Of a stretch of 64,000 nucleotides of DNA, positions 32,243 through 61,963 are shown piece after piece; the first letter of the stretch is position 1, and the number at the start of each line of letters is the position of its first letter. Position numbers and translations under genes: made by a program. A model generated the notes under the pieces. It ran no database searches, was not told the DNA's origin, and saw only the letters and a list, made by a program, of their open reading frames with translations. Origin of the DNA: Rhodococcus sp. KRD162 (GTDB taxonomy: Bacteria; Actinomycetota; Actinomycetes; Mycobacteriales; Mycobacteriaceae); the NCBI RefSeq assembly GCF_017168335.1, contig NZ_JABFAU010000005.1, positions 182,575-246,574 of the forward strand, in the 5' to 3' direction.

Positions 32243-32272
32243 AATCCCCGTCCGGCATGCCGGACGGGGATT
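32243..32272 (-). terminator. original intrinsic terminator of tRNA-Asn
   Basis: A perfect 30-bp palindrome with arms AATCCCCGTCCGGCA / TGCCGGACGGGGATT, followed on the minus strand by TTTTTGTTT. Before prophage insertion it lay 3 bp past the tRNA-Asn 3' end; the prophage now separates them by 29.6 kb. Confidence 0.85.
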
Positions 32273-32274
32273 GC

Positions 32275-32313
32275 GCTCCCCCACCTGGACTCGAACCAGG
32301 AACCCTTCGATTA
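32275..32313. repeat. attL core (39 bp)
   Basis: It is identical to 61890-61928 over 39 bp, with mismatches at both flanks. The sequence equals the 3' half of tRNA-Asn, from the base after the discriminator to the anticodon loop. It marks the left end of the prophage. Confidence 0.95.
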
Positions 32314-32366
32314 CCAGTTCGGGAATGCCCTGACCTTGGCGTTTCCGCAGGTAGCGTGAGGTACGC

Positions 32367-33338
32367 ATGTCGCTGACACACCTGCGTCCGACGCTAGATG
32401 TACGTGACGGATCTGGGACGGGTGTATCGAAACCCAACCCAGCAGTCCGTTACCTGCATCACAGTCAGACCATGCACAAGCAAATGTATTCACTGCCCCC
32501 AGAGTGGGAGGACGCCGTCATCAGGTGGGTCGAATGGCTCATCTCGGCCGGTGCTCCCGCCACCACCATCCGCACCCGCCGCAGCCACGTTCGGGGTGTC
32601 GCCCGCAAGCTCGGATGCGATTCGCCAGGCGTGGTCACTGCCGACGACATCGTCCACGTCACCGCGCACCAGAACTGGTCGAAAGACCATCGGCGCGGAC
32701 TGAAGTCCTCGTTGATCAAGTTCTTCGACTGGGCCATACGTGTCGGCATCGCCACAACGAACCCGGCGATCTCCCTTCCCAAAGTTTCCGAGTCCCGTCC
32801 ACGACCACGGCCCGTCCCCGACAACATGTGGGCACAGCTGATCGTCAACGCCGGCCCGCGAGAGCTCATGGCTGCACGGCTCGCGGACGAAGTCGGAATG
32901 CGGCGTGAGGAAGTCGCCAAGTGCCACACCAGCGATGTGCTGGAATCGTTCGACGGATACGAGCTCGTCGTGCACGGCAAAGGCGGCAAGCAACGGACCG
33001 TCCCGATCACCGACAAACTGGCGAAAGATATCCTCCGCGGGCCGGGCGGACACACCTACGGACTCGGCCGGCACGGGTATCTCTTCCCCGGCGCGGTCGA
33101 CGGGCACATCTCCGCGCACTACGTCGGCAAGCTCGTCGGCGACCTCCTCCCCGTCGGGTGGACGATGCACAAGCTCCGCCACCGATTCGCCACACGGATG
33201 TACCGAGCCTGCGGGCGCGACATCATGATCGTCTGCCGCCTCCTCGGCCACTCGAACGTCGCTACCACACAGCGCTACCTCGCCACCAGCAACGAAGACC
33301 TCCGCGCAGCAGTCAACGCACTCGCCGACGCGGCCTGA
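32367..33338 (+). CDS. int: tyrosine-type integrase
   Basis: A 323-residue site-specific recombinase that would integrate and excise the prophage at tRNA-Asn. An N-terminal SAM-like DNA-binding domain (WEDAVIRWVEWLISAGAPAT) is followed by the catalytic domain. There the active residues are Arg in EVGMRREEV, Lys in VHGKGGKQRTVP, HxxR in TMHKLRHRF, His in LLGHSNVATTQRY and the nucleophile Tyr in TQRYLA. ATG 32367 has TGAGGT upstream and is 7 nt after the stop of the rebuilt viral repressor frame. ATG 32472 or 32484 would give more typical N-termini. The last residues, ALADAA, resemble an ssrA-type degradation tag. Confidence 0.92.
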   Translation: MSLTHLRPTLDVRDGSGTGVSKPNPAVRYLHHSQTMHKQMYSLPPEWEDAVIRWVEWLISAGAPATTIRTRRSHVRGVARKLGCDSPGVVTADDIVHVTAHQNWSKDHRRGLKSSLIKFFDWAIRVGIATTNPAISLPKVSESRPRPRPVPDNMWAQLIVNAGPRELMAARLADEVGMRREEVAKCHTSDVLESFDGYELVVHGKGGKQRTVPITDKLAKDILRGPGGHTYGLGRHGYLFPGAVDGHISAHYVGKLVGDLLPVGWTMHKLRHRFATRMYRACGRDIMIVCRLLGHSNVATTQRYLATSNEDLRAAVNALADAA

Positions 33339-33351
33339 CACAGGAGAAACC

Positions 33352-33867
33352 ATGTCCAGCTTTCGCCCTGCCGACGCCACAGCAAAGGTCGGCACCACGC
33401 TCATCGCGCTCGGCGCGTTCTGGCTCAGCTTCACCGCACTCCGGGATCTGGCGGTGAGGTCCGGCGTCCCCGCCGGACAAGCCTGGGTCTGGCCCCTCAT
33501 CGTCGACGGGCTGGTCCTCGTCGCCACCGTTGCCGTCGTCGCACTCGACCACCACCGGTGGTACGCCTGGACTTTGCTCGGCTTAGGGGCGAGCCTGTCC
33601 CTCGTCGGTAACTCACTGCACGCGACGTACACCGGGGAGTTGCCCGTCGCCGTTCGCATACTGGTCGCCGCCGTACCACCGCTGTCGCTGCTGGCTGTCA
33701 CCCACCTGACGTACCTCCTGACTCGACGCGATGCACCGGCACTCGAGTCGGCGGAGGAGGCCCCCGCGGCCACACGAGTGCAGCCGTTGGTCACGACACT
33801 TCCCAGTTCGGACAGCGAGGTACCCGACCTCGGTGCCGCCTTTCGGGAAGCCCGGCGCGCAAGCTGA
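33352..33867 (+). CDS. DUF2637 membrane protein
   Basis: A 171-residue protein with four predicted transmembrane segments and a hydrophilic C-terminal tail of about 45 residues. The stretch VGTTLIALGAFWLSFTALRD and the SGVPAGQAWVWPLIVDGLVL segment are typical of DUF2637, a family found mostly on actinobacterial plasmids, integrative elements and phages. ATG 33352 has AGGAGAAACC upstream and follows the integrase stop by 13 nt, so the two may be cotranscribed. Function unknown. Confidence 0.83.
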   Translation: MSSFRPADATAKVGTTLIALGAFWLSFTALRDLAVRSGVPAGQAWVWPLIVDGLVLVATVAVVALDHHRWYAWTLLGLGASLSLVGNSLHATYTGELPVAVRILVAAVPPLSLLAVTHLTYLLTRRDAPALESAEEAPAATRVQPLVTTLPSSDSEVPDLGAAFREARRAS

Positions 33868-34315: not shown

Positions 34316-35242
34316 TCACGCTACGGCCCCGAGGTAGGCCGCCAACGTGTGTGATGCGTGTGTGTCGAGGTTTCGGCGGCCGCGATCGTAGATCCCGATG
34401 GTCGTCGAGATGTCCGCGTGCCTGGCGGCGAGCTGCACCTCACGTAATGGAACTCCGGCGTCGATTGCGTTGACGATCATGCTGTGCCGGAACGTGTGTG
34501 GTGAGACATTCATGGTGATACCGGTCGCGCGGGCGACACGTTTACACACGCGGTCGGCCGATCGTCGGGTCATGCGCGTCCCGTCTCGCCGCAGCAGAAG
34601 CGGCCCACTCGACCTGCCGTCGACGACCGCGTCGATCGCGCGCATCACGACGGGCGGTTGCGGCACGATCGCCTGCGCTCCACCTTTCTGCACGAACGAC
34701 ATGATCCGGTGGCCACGCGAATACGACAACACGTCGCCGACGTCTAGGCCGCAGACCTCGGAGACACGTAATCCCGTGTAGCCCATGATGACCACGAGCG
34801 CGTAGTCGACGGGCGAGGAGTCGTACGCCGTCCGGCACACGGCCTGCAATTCGTTCCGGTCGAGGTGCACTTTCTCGTTCGCGGATCGGTGGATCTTCGG
34901 CATCTTCAACAGGCGTGCAGGGTTTTTCGCTACGAGGTCGTCATCGAGTGCGAGCTCGTAGAACAGTTTCAGCGTGCCGAGTCGGTGATGGACCGTGGAC
35001 GGGCAGTTTCCGCGATCGTCGGCGAGATACCTCATGTACATTTCGAGGTGCTGACGACGGATCGCGAACGCCTCGAATCCGTTTGTGTCACACCACAGTA
35101 GAAACATAGATAAGTCGGCGCGGTAGCTGATACGAGTGTTCCCGTCCCAGCGTTGCAGGAAAGACTCGACGTAAAACTCGCGGTCGATTACGGGCATAGG
35201 CTGCGCTGCAGAAAGCAACGCGGTACCGTTCAGCACGGTCAC
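34316..35242 (-). CDS. second tyrosine recombinase (XerC/D-like)
   Basis: A 308-residue recombinase, not closely similar to the prophage integrase. An N-terminal SAM-like domain (NTRISYRADLSMFLLWCDTN) precedes a full catalytic set: Arg in GYTGLRVSEVCG, Lys in FVQKGGAQ, HxxR in SPHTFRHSM, His in ARHADISTT and Tyr in IGIYDRG. It faces the opposite way from int. It may be a second integration module, a resolvase, or a host gene picked up by the phage. I see no second att pair around it. Confidence 0.88.
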   Translation of the reverse strand: MTVLNGTALLSAAQPMPVIDREFYVESFLQRWDGNTRISYRADLSMFLLWCDTNGFEAFAIRRQHLEMYMRYLADDRGNCPSTVHHRLGTLKLFYELALDDDLVAKNPARLLKMPKIHRSANEKVHLDRNELQAVCRTAYDSSPVDYALVVIMGYTGLRVSEVCGLDVGDVLSYSRGHRIMSFVQKGGAQAIVPQPPVVMRAIDAVVDGRSSGPLLLRRDGTRMTRRSADRVCKRVARATGITMNVSPHTFRHSMIVNAIDAGVPLREVQLAARHADISTTIGIYDRGRRNLDTHASHTLAAYLGAVA

Positions 35243-43938: not shown

Positions 43939-44069
43939 CCCGAGCCGGCGAACGGCCAGATGAAACCACGAGCTCAACGGCATCAGCCTTGAACTCATCG
44001 GAATAGGTAGGTCGAGCAGACATGAGCACAATCCTTTCAAACTGTGTCTCACATCAGTAGTACACCTCA
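43938..44069 (-). mobile_element. IS3-family element remnant (left end plus OrfA N-terminus)
   Basis: From 44069 the minus strand starts TGAGGTGTAC, as an IS left inverted repeat. After 46 bp ATG 44023 opens MSARPTYSDEFKADAVELVV and then SSGRSPARV, the N-terminus of an IS3-family OrfA (helix-turn-helix transposase subunit). The similarity stops at about 43938, where phage tail sequence begins. The rest of the IS and its right end are absent. Confidence 0.78.
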
Positions 44070-61278: not shown

Positions 61279-61479
61279 TCACGAGACTGCCGTTTCGTGA
61301 CGGCGCGCCTGGTCGTATCGATCGACCTCATCCGGCTCGATCAGGTAAGCCCCGGTCTTCGTGGGCAACTTCTGGGCGGCCAGTGCATTGCGGGCGATGG
61401 CCTGCTGAACTGCGCGGCGGGTGATGCCCAACCGAGACGCCACTTGAGCGACGGTTAGCAAGTGTTCGATACTTGGCAT
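61279..61479 (-). CDS. small HTH protein, Cro/excisionase candidate
   Basis: 66 residues, first gene of the leftward early operon and divergent from the repressor. LTVAQVASRLGITRRAVQQA is a helix-turn-helix, and AYLIEPDEVDRYDQAR is the wing-like end of MerR/Xis-type small proteins. A sigma-70-like promoter places the transcript start within 1-2 nt of ATG 61479, so the mRNA is probably leaderless. Position fits a Cro-like regulator or an excisionase. Confidence 0.75.
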   Translation of the reverse strand: MPSIEHLLTVAQVASRLGITRRAVQQAIARNALAAQKLPTKTGAYLIEPDEVDRYDQARRHETAVS

Positions 61480-61486
61480 AGGTCAA

Positions 61487-61515
61487 GTTCTACCGTGCAA
61501 CTTGGCACACGTCAA
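61487..61515 (-). promoter_or_regulatory. early leftward promoter (P-cro type)
   Basis: On the minus strand TTGACG (-35) is followed after 17 nt by TAGAAC (-10). The spacer holds GCCAAGT. Operator-like ACTTGGCA copies (plus strand) lie at 61471-61478 and 61500-61507, so the repressor should block this promoter. Confidence 0.55.
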
Positions 61516-61581
61516 CTATTAGTCCTTAGCTATTTTGTCGACGTAGATGTTGTTATCCGTCACACACACCATCCGCACCAG

Positions 61582-61610
61582 TTGCCAAGTTACGAACGTG
61601 GTTCTAAGCT
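61582..61610 (+). promoter_or_regulatory. repressor promoter (P-rep)
   Basis: TTGCCA (-35) and TAAGCT (-10) are 17 nt apart and would start RNA at or just before ATG 61618, that is a leaderless message. No ribosome binding site is present. An inverted copy of the operator-like repeat (TGCCAAGT, 61583-61590) covers the -35, suggesting autoregulation. Confidence 0.5.
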
Positions 61611-61617
61611 ACGAACC

Positions 61618-61929
61618 ATGACAACCGTGTATGACCAGGGACGAGCACCTGAGATTCAGCCGCGACACCGGCTGCGCATTGCGCGCGAAGAGGCCGGCCT
61701 CGAACAGGCCGAGCTTGCGGAACGAATCGGAATTTCTCGACAGAGCGTGTCTAATGCCGAGAGCGGAAAGACTTCACCTCGGAAGTTGGTCTTCAACGCC
61801 TGGGCGCTCGCTACCGGTGTTCCGGTGAGCTGGTTGCAGACGGGGACAGTCGAAAGCCCCCGCCCGGATGGACCGGACGGGGGCTCTGAGCTCCCCCACC
61901 TGGACTCGAACCAGGAACCCTTCGATTAA
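61618..61929 (+). CDS. prophage repressor, truncated form ending in the att site
   Basis: 103 residues from ATG 61618. A Cro/C1-type helix-turn-helix lies at about residues 17-65 (LRIAREEAGLEQAELAERIG, ISRQSVSNAESGKTSPRK). Residues 92-103 (LPHLDSNQEPFD) are encoded by the att core, antisense to tRNA-Asn, and the stop TAA straddles the core edge. In rebuilt attP the frame would go on for 15 residues (YQFGNALTLAFPQVA). A 103-residue prophage form and a longer viral form is the pattern of integration-dependent immunity in BPs-like phages. It should repress the early promoter and so confer immunity. Confidence 0.85.
   Translation: MTTVYDQGRAPEIQPRHRLRIAREEAGLEQAELAERIGISRQSVSNAESGKTSPRKLVFNAWALATGVPVSWLQTGTVESPRPDGPDGGSELPHLDSNQEPFD
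61855..61885 (-). terminator. phage-supplied terminator for tRNA-Asn, inside the repressor gene
   Basis: Arms AGCCCCCGCCCGG and CCGGACGGGGGCT with an ATGGA loop, one G-U pair in the minus-strand RNA, followed by TTTCG. It lies 6 bp past the tRNA 3' end and mirrors the displaced chromosomal terminator. It also encodes residues 80-90 of the repressor. Confidence 0.65.
61890..61928. repeat. attR core (39 bp)
   Basis: Identical to 32275-32313. Together with bacterial sequence to its right it rebuilds the full tRNA-Asn gene, and it also encodes the last codons of the repressor on the other strand. Confidence 0.95.
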
Positions 61930-61963
61930 CAGTCGAATGCTCTGCCAATTGAGCTATGGGGGA
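61891..61963 (-). tRNA. tRNA-Asn (anticodon GTT)
   Basis: A 73-nt cloverleaf on the minus strand: acceptor TCCCCCA/TGGGGGA, anticodon stem TTCGA/TCGAA with loop CTGTTAA, T loop TTCGAGT. CCA is not encoded. Its 3' part is supplied by the prophage att core. Corresponds by position to asnT next to Rv2342 and dnaG in mycobacteria. Confidence 0.96.

Follow-up and report, generated by a model that had tools for sequence, protein, structure and literature searches.

The window analysed here, a stretch of 64,000 nucleotides from Rhodococcus sp. KRD162, contains a prophage of 29,654 bp from core to core (32275-61928), inserted in a tRNA-Asn gene. A repressor gene at its right end runs into the attachment core, and the integrase gene lies at its left end. 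The features relevant to the analysis are the following.

32243-32272, minus strand: the host's own tRNA-Asn terminator, left at attL (13 pairs, tail TTTGTTTCCC)
32275-61928, no strand: prophage, attL core to attR core (39-bp exact repeat; empty site in relatives)
32275-32313, no strand: attL core (exact repeat)
32314-32359, plus strand: displaced 3′ end of the viral repressor gene, consisting of one base (the third of a Tyr codon), QFGNALTLAFPQVA and the stop TGA (join, sister alignment)
32367-33338, plus strand: tyrosine integrase, 323 aa, C-terminus NALADAA (domain and PHROG matches)
61279-61479, minus strand: divergent HTH_17 gene, 66 aa, weakly excise/RDF-like (domain and PHROG matches)
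61480-61617, no strand: divergent control region with candidate operators (blocks conserved in four aligned sequences; putative function)
61499-61507 and 61583-61591: mutual reverse complements AACTTGGCA and TGCCAAGTT, candidate operators
61590-61607 and 61600-61617: short or imperfect inverted repeats TTACGAACGTGGTTCTAA and GGTTCTAAGCTACGAACC, candidate operators
61618-61929, plus strand: repressor as in the prophage, 103 aa, HTH_3, phrog_2328 (ORF, domain and PHROG matches)
61856-61884, minus strand: hairpin within the repressor coding sequence, shortly after the 3′ end of tRNA-Asn; proposed phage-borne replacement terminator (tested on L038, identical DNA)
61890-61928, no strand: attR core, equal to the 3′ end of tRNA-Asn and coding LPHLDSNQEPFD in the repressor frame (exact repeat, ARAGORN)
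61890-61963, minus strand: host tRNA-Asn(gtt), intact (ARAGORN)

The longest exact match shared by the prophage ends is 39 bp long, and its right copy forms the 3′ end of the intact tRNA-Asn(gtt) gene identified by ARAGORN. An attB that overlaps a tRNA gene at its 3′ end is a feature shared with phages of the BPs type, and some relatives have this site empty. Specifically, a 106-nt query joining the outer flanks was matched against 37 genomes of the genus: nine of them contain the whole empty attB (query positions 1-105) at 93-98% identity, and a tenth, G008, matches over positions 15-105 only. Host-type flank and terminator follow the tRNA gene in all ten genomes (the nine whole matches and G008). 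Within the prophage-bearing genome, attR matches the query over its full length but at only 92% identity because the phage hairpin located there resembles the host terminator, while attL matches over positions 1-84 and is the sole other match of the attR stretch in this genome. Two further members of the genus, G016 and G015, carry prophages at the same 39-bp core; the G016 match, whose coordinates are those of Rhodococcus sp. Leaf278 (L032, contig NZ_LMRR01000045.1), likewise has an attR matching the query at 92%. Separately, the strong hairpin after the same tRNA-Asn gene in G014 (L197) is of another kind, with 20 pairs and a TTTC tail, and part of the site recurs about 7.9 kb away; perhaps this site holds another element that brought its own terminator.

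In the prophage, the repressor frame stops one base past the core, at a TAA to which the core contributes its last two bases and the host its first one. Joining the left side of attR to the right side of attL in silico restores TAC in place of TAA and yields a single open frame of 118 aa ending in DYQFGNALTLAFPQVA, in which 15 further residues (YQFGNALTLAFPQVA) lead to a TGA (32357-32359); the integrase ATG (32367) follows after 7 nt. The attP core lies inside the repressor frame and the prophage form is the shorter one (103 versus 118 aa), with its stop at the junction, both as in BPs-type phages. The initial annotation had proposed that the frame enters the 39-bp core and stops there at 103 aa, which the exact repeat and the ORF confirm, and that it continues in attP for 15 residues to a TGA 7 nt before int, which the join reproduces; all of its coordinates hold. 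The repressor contains an HTH_3 domain (Pfam) and belongs to the known BPs-type family, matching phrog_2328 over its whole length (residues 1-103, E 6.8e-33). Relatives were found by tblastn in 229 of 50,697 phage records (153 from phages of Mycobacterium, 64 of Gordonia, 11 of Arthrobacter and 1 of Curtobacterium), with no Rhodococcus-named phage among the 229, and 57 of the best 60 of these records annotate an immunity or transcriptional repressor.

The reconstructed viral order places int directly downstream of rep (7-nt gap) and the divergent HTH_17 gene upstream, an arrangement that the initial annotation had likened to that of BPs/Charlie-type mycobacteriophages (HTH on the minus strand, repressor on the plus strand, attP, int). 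The phage loci bear this out. Fourteen were fetched, 13 of them with a whole repressor-family gene, and all 13 show the order minus-strand gene, repressor, plus-strand integrase; the minus-strand neighbour is annotated as excise, RDF or HTH in 11 and as hypothetical in Typha and McGonagall, and one hypothetical gene separates repressor and integrase in Dmitri and Gusanita. The fourteenth locus, prophiGD43A-5, is interrupted at attP, which according to its record lies within the immunity repressor. Among phages, the integrase DNA is closest to that of UmaThurman (Gordonia) and of mycobacteriophages such as Sneeze. Its C-terminus, correctly given before as ALADAA and read here as NALADAA, is an ssrA-like end of the kind known from BPs-type integrases, and the sister integrases end in NALANAA and NALAAAA. 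Between the divergent genes, the end blocks of 61480-61617 are nearly invariant and the middle is variable among four aligned relatives; judging by sequence, the inverted repeats in this region could be operators. No clear Shine-Dalgarno sequence was seen by eye upstream of the repressor ATG. The gene directly after int (33352-33867, plus strand) carries a DUF2637 domain (Pfam), yet it matches phrog_733, labelled "excisionase" (E 6e-46), so that label and domain disagree.

The tail that the join adds to the repressor has the same length and frame in all three prophages at this site: DYQFGNALTLAFPQVA in the window, DYQSGSVLTVVFPQAA in G016 and DYQSSKVVTLAFPAAA in G015. The viral repressor ends in QVA (...FPQVA) and its sisters in QAA (...FPQAA) and AAA (...FPAAA). 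Substitutions between the three sister tails, counted by codon position, amount to 1,5,4; 3,4,5; and 4,3,4, with third positions not enriched. On these sequences, constraint is apparent only on the frame, the length, the last Ala and a few other residues. The comparison was widened to 15 attL/attR pairs from prophages in genomes of the family, which cover several tRNA cores and include the three same-site prophages, these not being mutually independent. The in-frame continuation ends in Ala in all 15 pairs, as against one of 15 in each other frame; ten of the in-frame endings are AA, three VA, one PA and one TA. These pairs came from 27 attR/attL combinations, of which 12 gave no usable pair: G006, G004 and G070 have rep and int on one overlapping locus and no Ala end; G045 with L160 and G004b share a 14-nt match only, again with no Ala end; and G018, G023b, G108, G333, G121, G004c and G039 share no 14-mer. 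Taking every row with a core of at least 19 nt gives 18, with an Ala end in frame in 15 and in one for each other frame. The host supplies only the third base of the stop codon in 6 of the 15 pairs. Among free-phage repressors, several of them closely related, 12 of 13 end in Ala and that of Angel ends in Ser. Conservation of frame, length and last residue is the pattern expected of a C-terminal degradation signal, and the Ala-ending tails in all 15 pairs lend comparative support to a tail selected as such a signal across several tRNA targets.

The initial annotation had also described the tail as a different tag ending in VA. The ending is as stated, but a new tag class was rejected: QVA is a variant, one residue away from the sister tails in AA, and -VA recurs in prophages G023 and G096 and in phage Typha. 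According to the accessible text of PMC5765039, an -LVA tag led to about 2 times faster degradation of GusA in Streptomyces lividans, which indicates that VA can work in an actinobacterium, though the upstream residues of that tag differed. In the portion of PMC8092301 available, some published members are described as lacking an ssrA-like tag, with other signals thought to take its place.

The present state of the prophage bears on how these genes may act. Twenty chosen prophage ORFs, scanned against PHROGs, include tail proteins, endolysin, ParB-like and nuclease genes and a second integrase, and no terminase, portal, capsid or tape measure was found among these 20. Relative to the G015 prophage, 23.6 kb are missing between 43942 and 44070, a stretch that in G015 codes for terminase, portal, protease, major head protein, tape measure and minor tail protein. 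With structural genes missing both in this comparison and in the ORF scan, formation of particles by its own means is unlikely; from its gene content, the prophage has probably lost its head and tail module and is cryptic. In place of the 23.6 kb stand 127 bp (43943-44069), whose minus-strand junction reads MSARPTYSDEFKADAV... and resembles the start of an IS3-type transposase; this suggests an IS-linked deletion. The second tyrosine integrase lies inside the prophage at 34319-35242 (minus strand; phrog_1, E 1.4e-41), where G015 and G037 align too.

Repressor family, gene order, a tRNA attB with empty sites, a stop completed by a host base and an Ala-ending in-frame tail together indicate that this Rhodococcus prophage very probably carries an integration-dependent immunity switch of the BPs type, as the initial annotation had claimed. 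Under this model, the free phage would carry rep and int head to tail, with attP in the rep frame, and would make a 118-aa repressor whose Ala-ending tail acts as a putative protease degradation signal. The integrase (ending -DAA) would recombine attP with the tRNA-Asn 3′ end, splitting the repressor gene at the core and sending the tail and int to the other prophage end. With A as the first host base instead of C, the Tyr codon TAC would become the stop TAA, and the resulting 103-aa form, presumably stable as in BPs, would repress a divergent lytic promoter; the integrase's own C-terminus (NALADAA) may in turn limit integration. By analogy with BPs, integration would convert an unstable 118-aa repressor into a stable 103-aa form; cotranscription, proteolysis, repression and inducibility are the steps that we infer here, the direct observations being the gene anatomy, the att sites, the empty site, the frame, the homology and the conservation of the tail. 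The available text on BPs describes a stable and active 103-aa repressor and a 136-aa form degraded via its tail (PMC4557955), as well as a repressor stop codon made by the first host base (PMC9262239).

The principal alternative to this switch is that the 15-codon extension is a fortuitous read-through, integration trimming a meaningless tail while immunity is independent of it. Open stretches of 15 codons are by themselves not rare, the extension alone is weak evidence, and the interior residues of the tail lack strong conservation. By contrast, the agreement of three same-site relatives in tail length and frame, together with the Ala end in frame in 15 of 15 pairs, is more than chance would give. 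On the strength of the latter count, against one of 15 in each other frame, we rejected read-through noise; since 12 of 13 free-phage repressors also end in Ala and the homologous BPs repressor is degraded via its tail (PMC4557955, available text), a meaningless tail appears highly improbable. A further reading, compatible with the BPs-type switch, is that the switch is vestigial: with the structural module deleted, the tail may drift (QVA from QAA) and the truncated repressor alone may work as a superinfection shield. Replacement by 127 bp of the 23.6 kb that in G015 hold terminase, portal, protease, capsid and tape measure speaks for this reading, whereas the core and the genes for repressor, integrase and HTH protein are complete, with open reading frames, and -VA is present in G023, G096 and Typha as well; we regard a vestigial state as a serious possibility, although somewhat on the doubtful side. 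Given the loss of the head and tail module, the BPs-type switch would probably now serve only as an immunity and excision module.

Integration-dependent immunity is on record from phages infecting mycobacteria and Gordonia, and its presence in Bifidobacterium prophages has been proposed (PMC6109161, available text); the literature naming both Rhodococcus and integration-dependent immunity, to the extent that its text was accessible, contains no such switch in a Rhodococcus phage. The kind of switch is already known; what is new is the genus (within this search scope), the tRNA-Asn site and the variant tail. A minimal lysis-lysogeny switch is thereby extended to Rhodococcus prophages, with same-site sister prophages for comparison. 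In the published parts consulted (PMC4557955, PMC9262239), BPs (repressor gp33, integrase gp32, gp34) shares with the window an attP in the repressor frame, a 103-aa prophage form, a divergent small regulatory gene, int adjoining rep and a stop from the first host base. It differs in its target (tRNA-Arg, against tRNA-Asn here), in the codon turned into a stop (Cys, against Tyr) and in its tail (33 aa, against 15 aa ending in QVA), and its relative Angel lacks the strong hairpin that lies beside the core here. Among the matches listed, the closest named repressors are those of Gordonia phages Bakery (59% over 110 aa) and Wizard (62% over 101 aa), and the closest integrase DNA is that of Gordonia phage UmaThurman. 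All three phages have the gene order found here, and the two tested, Wizard and UmaThurman, have a hairpin beside the core; their cores differ from that of the window, and their tails end in PAAA and IPA. The target of UmaThurman is a tRNA-Arg gene (PMC4929511, available text).

Also among the closest systems are the Leaf278 (L032) and G015 prophages, which share the 39-bp core, the tRNA-Asn target, an integrase 92-93% identical and a tail of equal length, ending in QAA in Leaf278/G016 and AAA in G015, against QVA in the window. The prophages of G015 (L021) and the window (L017) share the core and have similar tails and integrases 93% identical, yet their repressors are only 48% identical; going by these identities, repressor heads might be exchanged at the att core as at a joint. 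Neither of the IMG/VR prophage records L037 and L038 contains an integrase match, and their other ends are unpaired.

Beyond the switch, the repressor segment next to the core has a second property. GCCCCCGCCCGGATGGACCGGACGGGGGC (61856-61884), between the HTH domain and the core, codes for a P-D-G-rich linker and forms a hairpin on the minus strand. We analysed 62 usable repressor loci, dereplicated to 50 (31 with and 19 without a tRNA-like core), L038 standing for the window with identical hairpin DNA. Compared with shuffles of synonymous codons, folding of the segment that precedes a tRNA-like core is stronger (mean z -1.92, n=31). This is not seen in homologues lacking such a core (-0.29, n=19) or in control windows from other parts of the gene (-0.44, n=100); the one-sided Mann-Whitney p-values of these two comparisons (4e-4 and 4e-6, respectively) assume the dereplicated loci to be independent and are hence overstated. 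Shuffles and control windows together led us to reject the hairpin as a mere result of GC-rich coding. Nineteen of the 31 tRNA-type loci have a strong stem at 1-14 nt past the tRNA, versus 2 of 93 control windows. Scored as RNA of the tRNA strand, the stem is better in 13 of these 19, equal in 5 and worse in 1, a comparison favouring that strand because the 19 were picked on it, and T residues after the stem average 3.42 of 8 there versus 2.26 on the other strand (p 0.003, under the same assumption of independence). A closely similar stem, CCCCGT[C/T]CGG...GGGG, lies 6 nt beyond the tRNA in 10 of 11 sites without this prophage; the exception, L197 (G014), is the site with the 20-pair hairpin, where another element may reside.

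These observations make it fairly probable that the segment is doubly written, as a linker in the protein and, on the other strand, as a terminator replacing the host one displaced by integration; by taking over this role it would also protect the repressor against the strong antisense transcription that converges on it from the tRNA gene. Alternatively, the hairpin may be an integrase/excise recognition element, or a by-product of the PDG-rich linker, and no terminator at all. The standard terminator scan called none at the phage hairpin, where the T-tract is short; T-tails are weaker at phage hairpins than at the 11 host sites (3.42 versus 5.27 of 8); and a strong stem is absent from 12 of the 31 tRNA-type loci, among which are four named mycobacterial loci (Typha, Angel, prophiGD43A-5 and M. 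komossense) and two of the genus to which the window belongs (G018 and G023). A role other than termination nevertheless seems rather unlikely, considering that the hairpin exceeds synonymous shuffles where homologues without a core and control windows do not, that the tRNA strand has both the better score in most cases and the longer T-tail, and that prophage-free hosts have a near-identical stem at nearly equal distance. The accessible text of PMC9635641 reports no arm-type integrase sites beside the core in the BPs type.

If the replacement-terminator reading is true, the repressor C-terminus, the recombination core, the tRNA 3′ end and the tRNA terminator share about 100 bp, and the coded hairpin suggests how a phage inserted in a tRNA gene could avoid having its repressor silenced by the tRNA promoter. 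The same DNA seems to give the host tRNA gene a new transcription stop, which is possibly a new observation, and the coded tRNA-terminator hairpin may be the part of this analysis most likely to be new. The word "terminator" is absent from the main text of PMC8092301, PMC9934374, PMC9635641, PMC9262239, PMC4557955, PMC5559632, PMC5513430, PMC6109161, PMC10865867 and PMC4982277; the founding 2013 paper lies outside this scope and could mention the hairpin. In literature joining integration-dependent immunity with "terminator", the tail terminator protein is meant, and no account of a tRNA terminator was found there. Phages Dmitri (L005), Doggs (L007) and Gusanita (L009) have Ala-ending repressor tails and no tRNA-like core found in the gene, and their attP, if located in the gene, must target something else. 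Gusanita has no hairpin (z -0.16), and Dmitri has a moderate one (z -1.97).
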